Shown one piece after another: positions 5,191 to 18,151 of a stretch of 18,151 nucleotides of DNA. The notes under the pieces were generated by a model that did no database searches, was not told where the DNA came from, and was given only the letters and a program-made list of their open reading frames with translations. The DNA comes from Candidatus Alcyoniella australis (GTDB lineage Bacteria > Lernaellota > Lernaellaia > JAVCCG01 > Alcyoniellaceae). Position numbers and translations under genes: made by a program. How positions within the stretch are numbered: position 1 is the first letter of the stretch; each line of letters starts with the position of its first letter. The DNA is taken from positions 1 through 18,151 of the forward strand of contig JAVCCG010000121.1 in NCBI GenBank assembly GCA_030765605.1, in the 5' to 3' direction.

Positions 5191-6654
5191 CTATCTAATG
5201 TAGATCGGGTTGGCGTAGATCCAGGGGTAGTCGCGGATGAACAGCTCCGGGCTGGTCCCTAAAAACGGAATCAGGTGCAGGGGCACGATGTGCGCCACCG
5301 CGCGAAACACGCCCGGACCCTCGACCTGATACTCGATCTGCGTATCCGAGGATGCCACCACCTCGCTGCCCAGCTCGTCGATGCGCACCAGCTCGAGACT
5401 GACCTCGGGCTGCGGCCCGTTGGGGTCGATGTAGAACGGCTCAGGCAGACTGACGCTGATCGTCAGGCCCTCCGACCACGGCACCTCCTGGCCCATCTCG
5501 TAGACCCCTTTGGCGTCCTGGGCGCGGAAGTCAAAGCCGATCGGGAAGCCGAGGAACTCGAAGACCGAGAGCATCCTCCCGCTGTCCAGCGCGTCCTCGT
5601 ACGAGGCCAACTGTTGGTCGTCGACCAACAGGTAGTTGGAGAAGAACTGCATCATCCGGCGGTAGCCGTCGGCGCGCTCGCCGTCGGAAAGCGGGAAGGG
5701 CAGCGCGTTGCGGTGCACGTCCGTGGCCGCCACCGCGTAGCAGCGCTGCACGCCCAGCAGCGCGTCCCAGCGTTCGTTCCAGGCCTGGGTCTGCGGCCAG
5801 AAGGTCATGATCGCCAGGTTGGGATGCGGGGTCAGTGGATCGAGCAGGAAGATCAGCAGGTCGTCGACAAAGTCCAGGCCGGGCAGGCCCAAGTCGGCTC
5901 GGTTGTCCGGATCGATGGCCGCGTGCAGGTTAAACAGCTCGACCCCGTCGGGCGCCAGAGTTTTGAGCTCGTCGATCGACCAGCCCTCGGGATGATTGAC
6001 AATCAGCGAAGCGCCCAGAGCGCGCAACTGCTCGGCCGAGGCGGAGTCCCGCGCGTCGTACAGCGCATAGCGTTCCTGCACCGTGCCATCGAGGTGCTGG
6101 TGCATGTGCACCGGCATAAAGTCGTTCTCGGTTCCCACGGCCACGGTGACGGAACTGCCGTCTGCGCAGTGAATCAGGTTGGCCGCGGGCCGATCCTCGT
6201 CGTCGTAGACCAGCCGATCGCCGTACTCGGGCAAATAGAGCAGCACGTCGGGAAACTCGTGCTCCGCGAAGCTGTCCGCGTGGTCGGTGAGCATCAGGTA
6301 GTTCTGACGCGTGTCGCACAGCGCCTGGCGCAGTTGCATCAGGCACTCGGTGTTGCCCTCGGGTTTGTTGTCGCACGCGTCGTGGGAATAGATCGAATGC
6401 GCGTGGATGATCCCGCGCGCCCAACTGCGGTCGCGCACCGGATCGAGCACGTCCATGGGCACGACCCAGCCCGGGTCGTAGTACGGCCCGCCGTCGTCGT
6501 CATCGCCCAGATCGTCGTCGCCGGAGTCGTCATCCTCGGATTCGTCGTCCGCAACTTCGTCGTCGTCATCGTCGTTGTCTGATTCGCAGCCCGCTGCCAG
6601 ACACAGCGCCAGCAGCGCCGAGAGGATCACCAACAGCCAGATTCCACGCATCAT
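5191..6654 (-). CDS. PHP-domain metallohydrolase-like lipoprotein with Asp-rich linker
   Basis: 487 residues (486 if the second ATG, at 6651, is used). A lipoprotein signal peptide ends at lipobox LAAGC, with Cys23 as the lipidation site. Residues 26-54 are mostly Asp/Glu. The catalytic region resembles the PHP family: HAHS (84-87), TDH (123-125), GTEND (174-178), VNHP (219-222) and ATDVH (310-314) match its metal-ligand motifs in order. Known PHP proteins are phosphoesterases or related metal-dependent hydrolases; the substrate here is unknown. The C-terminal ~100 residues form a beta-rich domain seen behind secreted PHP modules. It is expected to sit on an envelope membrane facing outward from the cytoplasm. 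It starts 39 bases after the DUF422-like gene, so the two probably form one transcript. The upstream ribosome site (GGGG) is weak. Confidence 0.85.
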   Translation of the reverse strand: MMRGIWLLVILSALLALCLAAGCESDNDDDDDEVADDESEDDDSGDDDLGDDDDGGPYYDPGWVVPMDVLDPVRDRSWARGIIHAHSIYSHDACDNKPEGNTECLMQLRQALCDTRQNYLMLTDHADSFAEHEFPDVLLYLPEYGDRLVYDDEDRPAANLIHCADGSSVTVAVGTENDFMPVHMHQHLDGTVQERYALYDARDSASAEQLRALGASLIVNHPEGWSIDELKTLAPDGVELFNLHAAIDPDNRADLGLPGLDFVDDLLIFLLDPLTPHPNLAIMTFWPQTQAWNERWDALLGVQRCYAVAATDVHRNALPFPLSDGERADGYRRMMQFFSNYLLVDDQQLASYEDALDSGRMLSVFEFLGFPIGFDFRAQDAKGVYEMGQEVPWSEGLTISVSLPEPFYIDPNGPQPEVSLELVRIDELGSEVVASSDTQIEYQVEGPGVFRAVAHIVPLHLIPFLGTSPELFIRDYPWIYANPIYIR

Positions 6655-11690: not shown

Positions 11691-12647
11691 TTAGAGCTGC
11701 GGCCGGGTCACGTCGTAAACCTCAAGGCGTAGGCCGTCGGCCTGCTCGATTACGAACAGCCCATCATCGGGCTCGCGGCCGTCCCAGCCCAGGCCAAGCT
11801 TGCCGTTTTCGTCGTTGTACAAATAGCCCTGGTGCAGGTTGAACTGCGCCTTGCGGTCCCACTGCGGCAGATCGAAAATCCGCGCGCCGAGCTTATCGGC
11901 CAGCAGATTGACTTGGCCTGTGGGCAGGCCGTAGCACAGGTTGATCACGTATTGACGTTGCTTGGGATCGAACCCGTCCAGATTTGCGTCGCGCACCGCA
12001 TGGTGCAGTCGCACTGCCTGGCGCCCATCGATTTTCACCGCGGGCATGCCGTGCAGCTCGATCCGCGCGGCGTTGCTTGACGAGGCCGAGGCGACCTCGA
12101 CCGCACCGTCGCCGTCAAAATATACCGGCTCGACAGTTCGCACGATCCCGCGGTCGAACAGCCGCACCTTATATGAGTTGGAATAATCCAGCGCCTCGTC
12201 CCACAGCACCAGCAGATCGCTGCTGTCGGTGTAGCCGTTGAAGTATTCGATCACGAATCCACGGCTCAGCTCGGCGTAGCCCGGCAGCTGACGATGGTCG
12301 CCCTCAAGGGTGTCGGCGAGCAGATCGTAATAGTCCGTGGCTTGCAGGTCGTACCCGTACTTCTCCGGCATGAATCCCGGCTGCATTGCGGCGTCGACAA
12401 TGGTTTTCAGCGAGATCGCCTGACGCTCGACTTGATCGTCGGGCGAGGTCCAGTTATATGCGGGCAGCCCCTCAAGGTAGATCGTGACTGCGGCGCTCTC
12501 GCCCAGCGCCACGTAGAGTTTTTGGTCGCCGTGCCAAACCTGAGGCGGCTCAGAGTTGCCCAGCCGCACGATCCAGGTAACCAGCAGGATTACCACGGCG
12601 ATCGCCAGTAGCGTCCATAGAAGTTTGTGACCGCGCTGATCAGCCAT
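11691..12647 (-). CDS. Membrane-anchored protein with two copies of an unrecognised domain
   Basis: 318 residues. A hydrophobic N-terminal anchor (about 9-28) lacks a lipobox Cys, so the rest is probably periplasmic and tethered to the inner membrane. The remainder is two related domains, about 37-175 and 180-313. The first has WHGDQKLYVALGE, ISLKTIVDAAM, YGYDLQATDYYDLL, RQLPGYAELSRG and WDEALDYS; the second has ARIELHGMPAV, VRLHHAVRDANL, LHQGYLYND and LGLGWDG. Both align by eye, in the same order, with the two domains of the upstream neighbour (12718-13767), so the genes are tandem duplicates. I do not recognise the family; no enzyme or metal motif is evident. GGGGAGG lies four bases before the ATG. 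It starts 70 bases after the neighbour's stop and probably shares its transcript. Confidence 0.8.
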   Translation of the reverse strand: MADQRGHKLLWTLLAIAVVILLVTWIVRLGNSEPPQVWHGDQKLYVALGESAAVTIYLEGLPAYNWTSPDDQVERQAISLKTIVDAAMQPGFMPEKYGYDLQATDYYDLLADTLEGDHRQLPGYAELSRGFVIEYFNGYTDSSDLLVLWDEALDYSNSYKVRLFDRGIVRTVEPVYFDGDGAVEVASASSSNAARIELHGMPAVKIDGRQAVRLHHAVRDANLDGFDPKQRQYVINLCYGLPTGQVNLLADKLGARIFDLPQWDRKAQFNLHQGYLYNDENGKLGLGWDGREPDDGLFVIEQADGLRLEVYDVTRPQL

Positions 12648-12669
12648 CCGACCTCCCCTGAAAACTATA

Positions 12670-12693
12670 GGGGGACGGCACGGGCCGCCCCCC
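12670..12693 (-). terminator. GC-rich hairpin between the two minus-strand paralogues
   Basis: On the minus strand GGGGGGCGGC pairs with GCCGTCCCCC (one wobble pair) around CCGT, and flanking AAAAC and GTTTT add further pairing. The tail (TATAGTTTTC) is only moderately T-rich. It may act as a partial terminator or mRNA stabiliser between the two co-oriented genes. Confidence 0.4.
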
Positions 12694-12717
12694 GGTTTTA
12701 CGAATGCGTTACTCGGA

Positions 12718-13767
12718 TCAGTCCGTAGTCACATCGTAGACGTCGATATATCCGCCGTCCATGTGCTTAATGCTGAAGTGGCTGGACATTACGGCGGCAT
12801 CGTCCCAGCCCAGCTTGTGGCCATCGGTGTCGCCATCGTAGATCCAGCCGTGATGCACGTCTTGACTGGTCTCGGTGTCCTGCCACACCGGCAGCAGGCT
12901 GGTGTCGCCGCCGAGCTTCTCGCTAAGCACCGACCAGTTGCCGTCACCATCGTTGGAAATGAAGTTAAAGCCGTAGTCGTAGGTCTTGGGGTCGAAGTCC
13001 GTCAGGTCGGCATCGTTGACGATCAGATACAGCGGCACGCCCAGGGTGCCCTCGTTGTCCACCACCGGCATGCCGAACAGGTCGACCTCGGTGTAGGTCT
13101 TTTCCACGCCGTAGGCCACGTTCACGGTGATGTGCTGATCGTAAAGGATGTTCTCGACGGCCTGGATCGTGCCGCCGTCCATCATCCGCATCTTCAGGCC
13201 GCTGGAGAAATCCAACGACTCATCCCAACCAAGGCGGATGTCGGTATATTTGGAATCGTCTTCCTCGTACTCGTAGATGTAGCCCAGGGCCAGGTCGGCG
13301 TAGCCCGGCAGCTCGCGGTAGTCGCCGTCCATGCCCTTGTTCAGCGGATTGTAGTTGTCAGTGGCGATAAACGTGTACTTATAGTCAGCCAAGTCCTTGC
13401 CCTTGACCTCGGCCGCGGCGTCGACAATTGTCTTAATTCGCAGGCAGAGCATCTCGCCGGCGTCCGGGTCGTCCTCGGGATTGTCCCACATTACGCCGCC
13501 CAGGCCCGCGAACACGACCTCGACCGGATCGTCATCGCCCAGCTCGACGAAGATCGTCTCATCGCCGGTCCAGGGGATGTCGTCGTCGTCATCATCGTCG
13601 TCGTCATCATCGTCGACATCATCGTCGTCGTCGTCAACATCATCGTCGACATCATCGTCGTCGTCATCATCGTCGTCCCCGGAGCAGCCGAGCAACGAGC
13701 CTCCGGCCAAGGCGGCCACGATCATGGCGATTAACAACATCAGGAAAAAATGGCTTCTATTGTGCAT
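12718..13767 (-). CDS. Poly-Asp lipoprotein with two copies of the same unrecognised domain
   Basis: 349 residues from the ATG at 13767, chosen because AAAGGAG ends six bases before it; an upstream in-frame ATG at 13800 lacks such a site. The lipoprotein signal peptide ends in SLLGC (Cys28). Residues 31-63 are 30 Asp and three Val. Two domains follow, about 66-205 (WTGDETIFVELGDD, IKTIVDAAAE, YTFIATDNYN, RELPGYADLALG, LGWDESLDFS) and 208-349 (VDLFGMPVV, LYLIVNDADL, VHHGWIYDGD, KLGWDD). They match, in order, the domains of the downstream paralogue and the small plus-strand lipoprotein at 14109. It is predicted to be acylated and held in the outer or inner membrane, with the acidic tract as a spacer. 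A TTGACA promoter lies upstream. Function unknown. Confidence 0.83.
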   Translation of the reverse strand: MHNRSHFFLMLLIAMIVAALAGGSLLGCSGDDDDDDDDDVDDDVDDDDDDVDDDDDDDDDDDDIPWTGDETIFVELGDDDPVEVVFAGLGGVMWDNPEDDPDAGEMLCLRIKTIVDAAAEVKGKDLADYKYTFIATDNYNPLNKGMDGDYRELPGYADLALGYIYEYEEDDSKYTDIRLGWDESLDFSSGLKMRMMDGGTIQAVENILYDQHITVNVAYGVEKTYTEVDLFGMPVVDNEGTLGVPLYLIVNDADLTDFDPKTYDYGFNFISNDGDGNWSVLSEKLGGDTSLLPVWQDTETSQDVHHGWIYDGDTDGHKLGWDDAAVMSSHFSIKHMDGGYIDVYDVTTD

Positions 13768-13773
13768 TTGAAT

Positions 13774-13780
13774 CTCCTTT
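13774..13780 (-). promoter_or_regulatory. Ribosome binding site that decides the poly-Asp lipoprotein start
   Basis: It reads AAAGGAG on the minus strand, six bases before the ATG at 13767. This favours that start over the in-frame ATG at 13800 and puts the signal peptide at the very N-terminus. Confidence 0.75.
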
Positions 13781-13818
13781 GTGATCCTGATTACAAACAT
13801 CTGTCAGAGGCGGGGGCA

Positions 13819-13848
13819 TCTATATCATGGGGGTCGCTTTTATGTCAA
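13819..13848 (-). promoter_or_regulatory. Promoter for the minus-strand lipoprotein pair
   Basis: On the minus strand TTGACA (13843-13848) is followed after 18 bases by TATAGA (13819-13824). Transcription would start about 45 bases before the ATG at 13767. Confidence 0.5.
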
Positions 13849-14032
13849 TTGTGATATATACCTGTCAAGGCTAGCTTTTTTGCGCTATGTTATTAGCTAC
13901 TTATGCTTTTTTAGAATTATGGGGCTCAAATAAAAACCATCGGCATGCCCAGCCCGAAACAACGTCGCCGTTGCGGTTGTTACAATTATTCCGTCTGATA
14001 TCAGCTAGTTCAACGGCAAAGTACATTATGCC
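13849..14032. other. AT-rich divergent intergenic region
   Basis: This is the middle of a 341-base gap (13768-14108) between two divergent transcription units encoding related proteins. It is markedly richer in A+T than the coding DNA, with T-runs near 13880 and 13908. It carries the 10-bp palindrome CTGATATCAG (13995-14004). I see no small gene in it. Confidence 0.5.
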
Positions 14033-14048
14033 TTGACTGATAAATCAG
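13995..14048. promoter_or_regulatory. Paired CTGAT/ATCAG palindromes, candidate operators
   Basis: CTGATATCAG (13995-14004) and CTGATAAATCAG (14037-14048) share the half-sites CTGAT and ATCAG, with spacers of zero and two bases. Their centres are 43 bp apart, about four helical turns. The second overlaps the -35/spacer of the promoter at 14033-14060, where a bound protein could block RNA polymerase. The regulator is unknown. Confidence 0.4.
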
Positions 14049-14060
14049 CCAGTCTATAAT
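14033..14060 (+). promoter_or_regulatory. Sigma70-type promoter of the plus-strand envelope operon
   Basis: TTGACT (14033-14038) and a perfect TATAAT (14055-14060) are separated by 16 bases, about 50 bases before the ATG at 14109. Downstream, TATAGTCA occurs twice 12 bases apart (14073-14080, 14085-14092). Confidence 0.7.
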
Positions 14061-14108
14061 GCGTTCGTTCTGTATAGTCAGACATATAGTCAACCTCAGG
14101 CATAGCAA

Positions 14109-14645
14109 ATGACACGTCTTATGAAACATCGGCATCCCAATCATTACGCCCTGATCGTGGCCCTATGCGCCATGCTGACCGTGGCGGTTTTTGGCTGCGG
14201 ACCGGGCTGGGAGGGCTACGACGACCAGTATTCCGAGGTGACCGACTTCACCGGCGGCGTGTGGGAAGGCGACGAGCGGGTCTATGTGGTGCTCGGCGAC
14301 ACAGAGGTCGAGGTCGTGCTCGAGGGCATGGATCAGCACGACTTCAACGGCGCTCCGGCAGTGCTGCTCTCCGAGGTGATCCTCCAAAGCAGCCTGGCCG
14401 ACGCGCCCGAGCTGTACCGCTACAACCTCACGGCCACCGACGGCTACGACCTATTTATCAAGCGTTACGAGGATCTATCGCTCCTGCCCTCTTGGGAGGA
14501 GATGAAGCACGGCTATTTATATTACGACTCGCGCTACGACGACCTGACCTCGGGCTGGACCAAAAATCCGTGGGGCAGCGCCGAGTGTGCCTATAGCGTC
14601 AAGTGGATGAACCACGGGGTCATTACCCTGTATTCCCAGGAGTAA
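14109..14645 (+). CDS. Small lipoprotein with one copy of the unrecognised domain
   Basis: 178 residues with a lipoprotein-type signal peptide ending VAVFGC (Cys30), then an acidic stretch and a single domain from about residue 50. It contains VWEGDERVYVVLGD, VEVVLEGMD, YRYNLTATDGYDLF, LLPSWEEMKHGYLYYD and TSGWTKN, and closes with VKWMNHGVITLYS. The same pattern occurs twice in each minus-strand paralogue and in divergent copies in the following gene, so this is the minimal form of the family. No catalytic residues or haem motif are visible. The ribosome site is weak (CAGG, eight bases before the ATG). A strong promoter lies about 50 bases upstream. The next gene starts two bases after its stop, using AGGAG within this gene's end, so the two are coupled. 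Confidence 0.8.
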   Translation: MTRLMKHRHPNHYALIVALCAMLTVAVFGCGPGWEGYDDQYSEVTDFTGGVWEGDERVYVVLGDTEVEVVLEGMDQHDFNGAPAVLLSEVILQSSLADAPELYRYNLTATDGYDLFIKRYEDLSLLPSWEEMKHGYLYYDSRYDDLTSGWTKNPWGSAECAYSVKWMNHGVITLYSQE

Positions 14646-14647
14646 AG

Positions 14648-17080
14648 ATGAAGCTTAACAGCTCAAGATCGTTCGTTTTAATCCTGACCCTGGTCCTGGC
14701 CCTAAGCCTGACGCTGTGGGCCGGCTGCGCCAAAGATACCGGCGACGACGATGATGATGACGACGACGGCCAAGGGGTCGGGGCCTATACCTTCTATTTG
14801 AACATGGTCCCGGTGCCGCTGGCCGACTTCACTCCCCAGGGCTTCATGGTCATCGACGCCGAGGGATCCGAGCAGCAGGTCCAGGGACTTAACGTGGCCG
14901 ACGTGCTGCTGAGCATCCCGCAGTTTGCCTCCGACGCGCCCAGGTTCACCTACGATTTCGTCAGCTCTTTTGATGCCGAACTCTCCGACCGCGTGGGCGA
15001 CGAAAATCTGCCGACGCTGGACCAGCTTCAGGACGCTGTGTTCTACGAGTGCGCGGCCGATCTGTGCATCGGCTGGATTGCGGAACCGGCCAAGGGCGAT
15101 TACCACGCATCGCAGATGAACAACGGCTCGCTGGTCAGCCTGCCGATCGCGGGCGAGTTCGAGATGACCGACCTGGCCGACGTCAACCAGCGCGACGGCG
15201 ACGACCCGGCGCAACTGGGCCAGACGCTGTGCGTCAACGGCGTGGTCACCGTGGGCACGCGGGTGATCGTCGACGGCTCGTACCTCAAGACCTTCATCCA
15301 GCAGAAAACCGACGGCGTCAAAGTCTTTGCCGACATGAGCTCCACCGAGGAAGACGACGGCTACGACGGCGCCTTAATGTCCGAGATCAGCACCTACGAG
15401 GGCGACGAGCTGTTCGTCAAGGGACGCGTGACCGTGCACGGCAACATGCTCGAGTTCATCCCGATCAGCGGCTACCACGTGGTCAAACTCTCGATCAACA
15501 ACGAAGTGCCCGATCCGCAGCCGACAACCATCGACGAGCTGGTCGCCTCACCCTACGACTACGCCGGATCGCTGATTCGACTCAGCGACCTCTCGATCGT
15601 CGACATCGACCCCGAGGATGCGACCACCGACTGGCCGCCCTACGCGCAGAAATCCAAGGACATCACGATCCGCCACAGCAGCGGCGGGCCCAAGGCCAAC
15701 CTGCGGATCTACGAGAGGACCGGCGTGCCCGGCTCGAACAAGCCCGACGACGGCTTTGACATGGACGGCATCATGTTCGTCGACGACGCGCTGGCCGGTG
15801 TGTTCGCGCGCAAAATCGAGGACATCAATCCCTCGGACGAGCGGCTCGAGGGCTACGTCAATGTCACGGTCTACGGCGAACAGCTCGAGGCCAACGTCAA
15901 CCTGGCGACCCTGCCGACCTGCCTCTACGATGTGGGCGACGGCCCACAGCCCGTGGTTTCGCTGGCCTCGGTGATCCGCGCCGCGGGCCTGAACCGCGAA
16001 CCGAAAAAGTTCGAGTACAAGCCAGTGGCCTACGACGAACGCAAACCGTTTGACAAGATCTCGTTCGACGAACAGAAATCCGGAGTGCTCTACCAGGATG
16101 AGCCGACCAGCTCCGAGCAGCCCGACCCGTTGGTCAGCTCCCATTACTGGGAGGAAATGAATCTCTCCGATATCTACTTCCTGCACGGCGTGACCAAGAT
16201 CGAGGCGATCCGCGAGGTTGAGCCGCCGCCCGAGGGCGACGCCGTACACGGCGAGGGGATCACGCTGAAGATCAACGGCCGTAAGTTCGCCATCAACTTC
16301 GACACCATGGACACCGTCGACTACGAGGGGCACGAGGCGATCGCCATCGCCGACTTCGTCTCGGACTACGTGATCGAGCTGTTCGCCATGGACGGCAGCT
16401 TCACCACCGATCAGATCAAAGTGCTCTACGACTACAAGATCGAGCCCTGGCAGGGCAAGTCCGATGTGATCGTCACCTGGGACGATATGCAAAACGGCTA
16501 CCTGATCATCGACGACCCGCCCTACTCCGTGTTTCCCGACCTGGGCGAGTCCGCGCGCGTGGACGATCTGTACGTGATCGACATGCTGCGCTTCATCGAA
16601 GTCCAGGATCCGCCGGGCGACCCGGTCAAGATCTATTTGCGCGACTGCGATACCAGCGAAGTCGAGGTCGAGCCCGACGTGTACGAGGAGGTGGTCTACT
16701 TCAAGACCGTGCTCGAGCTCGGCGGGGTCGATGTGGATGGCGATATGTACCTCTACGACGTCAACATCCACGCGGCCGACGAGTTCGTCTCCACCTGGAC
16801 CTACGGCCACAACCACGTGGAAAACATGTACTACCGGCCCTATGCCAACCGCGGCTTCATCGACGATCCTGACCTCTCCGAATGGGGCGGGCGCGTCTCG
16901 ACCAAGGCCGTGGACAAGCTGATCTTGATCAACGTGCCCCAGGAAGCCCCGTCGATCCCGGTGCTGATCGGCGGCGACACGCTGTGGGGCTCGGACGCCA
17001 ACACCTGCGAGGGCTGCCACTACAAACACGACCAGTTGCAGCTGCCCATCAACTGCTACAGCTGCCACGACGAGCCCTGA
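14648..17080 (+). CDS. Large multidomain lipoprotein with two C-terminal CxxCH haem c motifs
   Basis: 810 residues from the ATG at 14648, five bases after AGGAG. Lipobox LWAGC (Cys27) is followed by an Asp-rich stretch (30-40). The domain shared with the neighbours appears, diverged, at about 46-168 and again at 404-524 and 536-652 (YDYKIEPWQGK, VTWDDMQNGYLIID), with a less certain copy at 660-763. Between the first two, residues 172-390 look like OB-fold beta-barrel units (LGQTLCVNGVVTV, GDELFVKGRVTVHGNMLEFI). The C-terminus has CEGCH (787-791) and CYSCH (803-807), each a covalent haem c attachment site; H794 is a possible axial ligand. It is predicted to be exported, lipid-anchored and possibly redox-active or haem-carrying. 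It precedes a TonB-dependent receptor by eight bases, suggesting joint function at the outer membrane. Substrate unknown. Confidence 0.85.
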   Translation: MKLNSSRSFVLILTLVLALSLTLWAGCAKDTGDDDDDDDDGQGVGAYTFYLNMVPVPLADFTPQGFMVIDAEGSEQQVQGLNVADVLLSIPQFASDAPRFTYDFVSSFDAELSDRVGDENLPTLDQLQDAVFYECAADLCIGWIAEPAKGDYHASQMNNGSLVSLPIAGEFEMTDLADVNQRDGDDPAQLGQTLCVNGVVTVGTRVIVDGSYLKTFIQQKTDGVKVFADMSSTEEDDGYDGALMSEISTYEGDELFVKGRVTVHGNMLEFIPISGYHVVKLSINNEVPDPQPTTIDELVASPYDYAGSLIRLSDLSIVDIDPEDATTDWPPYAQKSKDITIRHSSGGPKANLRIYERTGVPGSNKPDDGFDMDGIMFVDDALAGVFARKIEDINPSDERLEGYVNVTVYGEQLEANVNLATLPTCLYDVGDGPQPVVSLASVIRAAGLNREPKKFEYKPVAYDERKPFDKISFDEQKSGVLYQDEPTSSEQPDPLVSSHYWEEMNLSDIYFLHGVTKIEAIREVEPPPEGDAVHGEGITLKINGRKFAINFDTMDTVDYEGHEAIAIADFVSDYVIELFAMDGSFTTDQIKVLYDYKIEPWQGKSDVIVTWDDMQNGYLIIDDPPYSVFPDLGESARVDDLYVIDMLRFIEVQDPPGDPVKIYLRDCDTSEVEVEPDVYEEVVYFKTVLELGGVDVDGDMYLYDVNIHAADEFVSTWTYGHNHVENMYYRPYANRGFIDDPDLSEWGGRVSTKAVDKLILINVPQEAPSIPVLIGGDTLWGSDANTCEGCHYKHDQLQLPINCYSCHDEP

Positions 17081-17088
17081 TCCGCTGA

Positions 17089-18151
17089 TGAGCGTTCGCA
17101 GTTTACGATTGTTGATCCTGCTGCTCGCGCTATGCCTGGCCCTGCCGCCGTACGCGGTGGCGCAGCAGGACGACGGCGATCAGTCCGATGACGATGACCA
17201 GTCGACCTTCACCCTGGGCGAGGTCGTGGTGCTGGGCAAACGAAGCCCGGCGCAGCGCACCTCGTTCGCCGTGCTCATCGACGCCAAAGACATCAAAGCC
17301 CTGGGCGCGCAGAACGTGGCCGAAGCCTTGGCCGCGGATTCCGGCTCGCGGATCGACGCCGCACCGACCTCGATCTCGGCCAACGGCAAACACGAGAGCC
17401 TGGTCAGCCTGCGCGGACTCGATCCGCGCAACGTGGCCGTGCTGGTCGACGGCGTGCCGATCTACGAGCCGTACTTCCACGTGCTGGACCTAAGCAAGCT
17501 GCCGGTGGGCGACGTGGCCTCGATTCGCATTGCGCGCGGCGCCAGCTCGGTACTCTACGGTCCCAACACACTGGGCGGCGCGATCAACATCGTCACGTTG
17601 CGCGGCTGTGCCACCCCGCGCACACGACTGAGCGCGGGCTACGGCGACGTCAACGCCTGGCGCGGCTCTGCGCGCACCTCCGGCGCGTACAAGGACTTTG
17701 ATTACTACCTCGCACCCGCGTTCTCGACCAGCGCGGGCTACCTGACCTCACAGCAGATGGAGCCCACGCGCAACGAGGACGGCAAGCTGCGCAACAACTC
17801 CGATTCCGAGGATCTATCGCTCAGCGGACGCCTGGGCTACAGCGGATCGCTGGGATCAGTGGCGCTCAGCGCCGGGCACTACGAGTTCGAGGGCGGCGTG
17901 CCGTTCAACATGGAGGCGGTCGATCCCTCGACCCTCTGGCGCAAGGACTGGCGTAAAAGCTCGGTGGCGCTGCACGCTGAGCTGGTGCCCACCGATTGGC
18001 TGCTCTTGCGCTCCAAGCTTTTCTACGTGCGCTTCTACAACACGATCACCACCTATGAAAACGCGGGCATGTCCGCGGTGCTCTCCGAGGGCCTCGCGAT
18101 CAGCACCTACGACAACGATGTGGCCGGGTTCTCGCTGCTGCCGCAATTCGA
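17089..18151 (+). CDS. TonB-dependent outer-membrane receptor, partial (cut by window end)
   Basis: The frame is open from the ATG at 17089 to the last base; 354 complete codons are visible. A Sec signal peptide ends YAVA-QQ (cleavage near residue 26), followed by an Asp-rich spacer and a TonB-box-like segment FTLGEVVVLG (41-50). The plug domain (about 60-170) has the family motifs SLRGLDPRNVAVLVDGVPIY (107-126) and SSVLYGPNTLGGAINIVT (153-170), and beta-barrel strands begin after it. Such receptors import metal chelates, haem, cobalamin or glycans using TonB energy. It starts eight bases after the haem-motif lipoprotein, with only a weak ribosome site, so translation may be coupled. The ligand cannot be read from this part; the rest of the barrel lies beyond the window. 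Confidence 0.95.

Follow-up and report, generated by a model that had tools for sequence, protein, structure and literature searches.

An 18,151-nucleotide stretch of the genome of Candidatus Alcyoniella australis (GenBank assembly GCA_030765605.1, contig JAVCCG010000121.1; hereafter the window) carries four adjacent genes, A to D, whose exported products contain nine copies of one domain of ~110-140 residues. Structure predictions suggest that the domain belongs to the sulfite-oxidase (SUOX) fold, as a metal-free and expanded branch that had gone unrecognised, rather than to an unknown fold. A gene for a TonB-dependent receptor begins a few bases past D, and distant relatives of the domain are encoded beside molybdenum-related genes. 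We propose, with middling confidence, that these domains capture a molybdenum or pterin ligand for TonB-dependent uptake.

One domain repeated in four exported proteins

Genes A and B lie on the minus strand and are followed by C and D on the plus strand, at the positions given in an earlier note made from the sequence alone. Gene A (11691-12647) encodes 318 residues with an N-terminal transmembrane anchor, no lipobox and two copies of the domain, A1 (about 12132-12536) and A2 (about 11703-12131). Its paralogue B (12718-13767, with an alternative upstream start at 13800; 34% identity) is a lipoprotein (LLGC) in which an Asp-rich linker accompanies copies B1 (about 13156-13578) and B2 (about 12721-13155). 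Gene C (14109-14645) specifies a 178-residue lipoprotein (CGPGWEGYDDQYS) that shares 54-57% identity with its orthologues and holds a single copy (about 14250-14642) with the motifs ATDGYDL and VKWMN. The 810-residue lipoprotein D (14648-17080; 48-51% identity to three orthologues) contains four: D1 (14771-15163), D2 (15839-16219), D3 (16235-16612) and D4 (16610-16951). Judged by sequence, then, B, C and D are lipoproteins and A is transmembrane-anchored. Most copies are thus lipid-anchored, as the earlier note had stated, with A as the exception; its placing of copies on both the inner-membrane and the lipid-anchored side is borne out in part, in that A has a membrane anchor and the others are lipoproteins.

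The copies were cut as families from orthologue alignments and compared profile to profile with hhalign, for which column-shuffled controls gave a 99th percentile of 3.6% and a maximum of 21%. Outside D the agreement is very strong (B1-B2 99.1%, B1-C 99.0%, B2-C 96.3%), and single-sequence alignments concur (Z of 38.8 for A1-B1, 32.9 for A2-B2 and 18.5 for A1-C). The D copies are less strongly supported. Their single-sequence scores are weak or at background, the best being C-D3 (Z 7.2) and C-D2 (6.7), with D4 at background, so these copies rest on profiles and fold. Family C matches D2 at 96.2% and D3 at 91.5%, the pooled A/B/C profile gives 94.6% for D1, 90.1% for D2, 90.8% for D3 and 54.5% for D4, and a profile of relatives from outside the class, described below, recovers D4 at 86.7% and leaves D1 unmatched (0.3%). 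The C profile also finds D2 independently (E 0.0056).

These comparisons confirm nine copies (two in A, two in B, one in C and four in D), seven or eight of them firm; the earlier note had counted about nine, two in each minus-strand paralogue, one in the small lipoprotein and three or four in D. It is unlikely that D1 and D4 are unrelated β-rich domains rather than true members: their single-sequence scores are at or near background and the only matches of the D4 model are ubiquitin-like folds, but the profile values for both copies speak against such an origin.

Between D1 and D2 lies a region of ~230 residues (residues 173-400; 15164-15847, plus strand) that looks OB-like by eye and, at <1% by hhalign, is not a copy of the domain. 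The C terminus of D carries two c-type haem motifs, CEGCH (17006-17020) and CYSCH (17054-17068). Both CxxCH motifs are invariant in the four orthologues and are putative haem sites; neither they nor the OB-like insert had been mentioned before. Near both motifs, D4 has an invariant cysteine, Cys 667, and a conserved Y-x-H-x-H motif (YGHxH, residues 719-723; together window 16646-16816), which are possible haem or metal ligands.

A-D have no match among Pfam or NCBIfam models, and a PDB sequence search with three family profiles returned chance matches only. The claim that the domain is unrecognised therefore holds for sequence libraries, where pooled profiles link the copies and find relatives but no curated family is matched; for the fold it does not, since the predicted models match SUOX.

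Predicted SUOX fold and the missing molybdenum ligand

AlphaFold2 models were built from small alignments, and structural Z scores were obtained by realignment against Foldseek candidates. The D3 model aligns best with SoxCD (2xts; Z 10.5, 104 residues, 2.8 Å), followed by SorT (9.4), plant sulfite oxidase (9.2) and three PruR proteins (9.0, 8.7 and 8.5), whereas unrelated rows score Z 5-6. For B1 the top ranks are chicken sulfite oxidase (3hbg; Z 8.5), SorT (8.0) and PruR (7.0). A Z below 8 may reflect no more than a common arrangement, according to the tool's own caution; the D3 match exceeds this value and is consistent over many members of one superfamily, so it stands. Foldseek with the B model alone gave nothing below E 0.001, and the SUOX match surfaced only upon realignment. 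Copies D3 and B1 are thus predicted to share the SUOX fold of the molybdenum-binding domain, and the fold test is confident for these two only. D4 matches β-grasp folds alone; the ubiquitin-like matches of B1 and D4 extend over only ~70 residues and were attributed to the shared β-grasp part. The earlier note's faint resemblance to the sulfite-oxidase fold is in this way supported, by the kind of structural comparison that it had suggested, for the B and D models after realignment, D4 apart.

Sequence comparison supports the same fold weakly but independently of the models. Along a common strand-helix-strand-DGY core, family profiles score 44-58% with small SUOX proteins, and shuffled controls no higher than 3.8%. 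The distant member L062 weakly matches PF00174 at E 0.16 and the best relative reaches 11.9 bits (cut-off 24), with 0 matches for A-D. Set beside PF00174 and the molybdenum domains of sulfite oxidase, SorT and SoxCD, the domain has the same predicted fold and a GV-x-L-x-x-[IL]L ... DGY strand-helix-strand core, but it is shorter, scores far under the Pfam cut-off and lacks the molybdenum-ligating cysteine in its conserved copies. A 270-residue exported protein in another genome (L084:642-1454, plus strand, G033) has two tandem cysteine-less PF00174-like domains; it adjoins a membrane protein similar by eye to the neighbour of MoaC at L111:2295-2966.

Across the orthologue alignments, a conserved cysteine is absent from the A, B and C copies and from D2 and D3; the A, B and C copies are therefore not expected to ligate molybdenum. 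In D4, Cys 667 is only a candidate for the molybdenum-ligating position.

The closest small molybdenum-free relative by predicted fold is PruR (PDB 7KOS, 7KOU, 7KP2, 7KOM), a periplasmic protein with a SUOX fold that lacks the molybdenum cysteine and binds reduced pterins, with Asn/Asp-x-Tyr and a Trp in its pterin site (PMC13259868). Like PruR, the present domains are small and exported, and some carry a motif that resembles Asn/Asp-x-Tyr. Possible counterparts of the PruR site, matched by motif rather than by residue-level alignment, are DGY in C, DYY in A1, DNY in B1 and Trp 166 in C, and these D/N-x-Y motifs may be equivalent to Asn/Asp-x-Tyr. A2, D1 and D3 have lost the motif, which makes a structural role probable for some copies. 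PruR differs in being single-copy, soluble and paired with DcpA or a kinase, whereas here nine lipid-anchored, tandem copies are paired with a TonB receptor, and the domain and the PruR chains have no detectable sequence match. The earlier suggestion of an expansion around a binding function is plausible, because the closest molybdenum-free fold relative binds pterins.

TonB receptors and the neighbours of distant relatives

The receptor gene (17088-18149, plus strand), previously overlooked, encodes the N-terminal 354 residues of a TonB-dependent receptor cut by the contig end, with a Plug domain (PF07715, E 1.8e-20). The locus is conserved as a unit, a point that the earlier note had wished to see checked: C-D-TonB with B is kept in four of the seven genomes of the class (G000, the genome of the window, and G002, G004 and G006). 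In the latter three, receptor orthologues follow D and a B orthologue lies near C-D-TonB; neither C nor D turned up in G001, G003 or G005. One genome of the class corresponds to PMZC01000227.1, a public record named Deltaproteobacteria bacterium fen_1099. In G006 an AhbD/NirJ-type radical SAM/SPASM gene (L030:3615-4664, plus strand; 328 bits to TIGR04545, below cut-off) lies immediately upstream of the B orthologue; it accounts for a MoaA-like match there and is not MoaA. Elsewhere in the window, 5191-6654 (minus strand) encodes an Asp-rich lipoprotein without a Pfam match whose HAHS motif is suggestive of a PHP-type phosphoesterase.

A profile of the C and B copies found one match outside the class in a broad sample of 386 genomes, a lipoprotein in G096 (E 1.7e-8). 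When this member was included, the profile matched 7 of 195 genomes in the phylum of G034 (E down to 3e-20), which we take, as a guess only, to be Myxococcota; there was no match in the phylum of G044 or in a plasmid collection. Nine outside loci (L062 and L105-L112), belonging to two other phyla, were read. The lipoprotein has a single copy in L062, L106, L108, L109 and L110 and three copies in L111 and L112, and none of the outside lipoproteins bears a haem-motif domain. L105 (9379-12036, plus strand) and L107 (7264-9968, minus strand) encode a two-copy and a one-copy lipoprotein and, in place of the receptor, a putative outer-membrane barrel of 410 residues; a PPK2-like gene accompanies them.

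In the other phyla too, the lipoprotein gene tends to adjoin a TonB receptor. A Plug-domain receptor is directly adjacent in all four class loci and in six of the nine outside loci (L062, L106, L108, L109, L110 and L112). The outside receptors align with complete class receptors over ~640-730 residues (94-165 bits), whereas the second receptor of G006 does so over only ~150-210 (57-83 bits). Such pairing is reminiscent of SusC/SusD-type systems, in which a lipoprotein-receptor gene pair is likewise conserved, but the lipoprotein here is SUOX-like rather than SusD and the linked genes concern molybdenum and the molybdenum cofactor (Moco), not glycans.

That linkage is seen in the outside loci and, with the receptor pairing and the haem motifs, likewise absent from the earlier note, it provides most of the clues to function. 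A ModE-like helix-turn-helix (HTH) gene adjoins the lipoprotein gene in three of the nine, L106, L108 and L062 (E 2e-13, 1.7e-14 and 1.8e-22), tail-to-tail in the first two. By a rough binomial that takes its background from G002 (one ModE in about 2.3 Mb), the chance of this is ~5e-6. MOSC and MoaC genes lie beside the pair in L112, and MoaC and MoaA beside L111. In L062 the frame of the ModE-like HTH continues into a PF01497 periplasmic binding protein that has a lipobox of its own (L062:594-2045, minus strand), which may be a fusion or an oddity of assembly or annotation; we take this reading frame to be reminiscent of MolA. Between the lipoprotein and MoaC/MoaA in L111 (1184-2320, minus strand, G396) is a membrane region fused to an NTPase (NTPase_1/DUF2478-like).

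A proposed capture system and its alternatives

Taken together, the nine predicted metal-free SUOX-fold domains, borne by three lipoproteins and a membrane-anchored protein whose genes lie next to that of a TonB-dependent receptor, most likely serve to capture a ligand outside the cytoplasm, be it a pterin, molybdopterin/Moco, or a molybdate or tungstate chelate. The captured ligand would be bound at or near the outer membrane and passed to, or taken from, the receptor for uptake, and haem-bearing D may add an electron-transfer or ligand-reduction step. What we observe are the repeats, the predicted fold, the absent molybdenum-ligating cysteine, lipid anchors as judged by sequence, the pairing with TonB receptors and, in relatives, the linkage to molybdenum and Moco genes; from these we infer the class of ligand, the direction of uptake and the role of the haem in D.

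A narrower version, in which pre-formed molybdopterin/Moco or one of its precursors crosses the outer membrane by way of the locus and is held by the cofactor-free domains, appears rather unlikely. It derives from the three locus genomes without MoaC and from G002, which has a formate dehydrogenase, a MoeA-family protein (PF03453, E 9.5e-35) and a ModE-like HTH ~240 kb from the locus. MoaC (PF01967) is present in G000, G001, G003 and G005 and missing genome-wide in G002, G004 and G006 (96, 96 and 84% complete); the chance that all three lack it through incompleteness is ~3e-4, if independent. Neither MoaC nor MOSC was matched in 2.28 Mb (43%) of G002. The formate dehydrogenase α-subunit of G002 (L120:2442-5180, minus strand, contig C4; 787.6 bits, cut-off 666.25) has an in-frame TGA at the catalytic Cys/Sec position, likely selenocysteine (U366 in DHCARLUHSSTVAG). 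Enzymes of this class need the molybdopterin cofactor, so that G002, with no MoaC found, needs a pterin cofactor that it apparently cannot make. Asp-run lipoproteins of the kind typical for these genomes are encoded on the same contig, which makes contamination less likely.

Several points weigh against capture of a molybdenum or pterin ligand. Confidence in the models is moderate (predicted local distance difference test score 66 for B, and ~82 in D only for residues 530-710), a SUOX fold alone is no proof of ligand binding, and key ligand-site residues have decayed in A2, D1 and D3. The molybdenum link comes from distant relatives: neither the window nor the sequence fetched around the orthologous loci of the class contains a molybdenum or Moco gene, and no convincing ModE or Moa gene lies near those loci. 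The ModE-like matches are below the curated cut-off and without the molybdate-binding half. Finally, G000 keeps the locus together with Moco synthesis, in an apparent moeA-moaA-moaC-MOSC-mogA run on another contig (MoaA and MoaC confirmed). This, the incompleteness of metagenome-assembled genomes and the reading of less than half of G002 weaken the argument from missing MoaC.

The same observations could be accommodated by other functions. Periplasmic pterin binding might signal to a membrane regulator without any import, as with PruR, whose fold, size class and missing cysteine the domain shares and whose Asn/Asp-x-Tyr may correspond to the motifs in C, A1 and B1. Yet in the loci read, no DcpA or DcpA-type sensor, GGDEF or histidine-kinase gene was recognised as an immediate neighbour of the lipoprotein genes; TonB receptors and lipid anchors occur there instead, and we regard sensing as improbable. 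We give similarly little weight to a redox system, in which D would be a degenerate SUOX-cytochrome fusion of sulfite-dehydrogenase-like descent with a role in electron transfer at the outer membrane, where it might reduce a metal complex for the receptor. The invariant haem motifs, Cys 667 and the YGHxH motif of D4 would suit such a protein, as would SoxCD as the top fold match, but the conserved copies lack the molybdenum-ligating cysteine, genomes with the locus have no PF00174 matches and the lipoproteins of outside relatives are free of haem motifs.

The receptor might also import another TonB substrate, such as haem, a siderophore, cobalamin or another metal, with the SUOX-fold domain serving merely as a protein-protein or structural module. 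Class receptors do score against B12, siderophore and haem receptor models, below cut-off; the AhbD/NirJ-like gene adjoins B in G006, and CbiMQO-like genes lie ~12-14 kb downstream in G002. The repeated ModE and Moa/MOSC neighbours of the relatives argue against this explanation, to which we assign a small probability.

Capture of a molybdenum or pterin ligand would differ in place from known molybdenum uptake. The usual assumption is that bacteria synthesise their own molybdopterin and that molybdate enters through porins and inner-membrane ABC importers. The ModABC and MolBC-A molybdate importers act at the inner membrane (PMC4031551). In the literature on TonB and molybdenum we found no paper describing such a system, and a review of TonB (PMC11658791) makes no mention of molybdenum, tungsten or pterin. 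If the proposal is correct, it would add an outer-membrane step, so far undescribed, to molybdenum or pterin nutrition, and a family that curated models do not recognise gains a fold, a likely class of ligand and a hypothesis for a TonB substrate. Should the scavenging of the cofactor itself prove true, the cofactors imported through TonB would include Moco beside haem and cobalamin.

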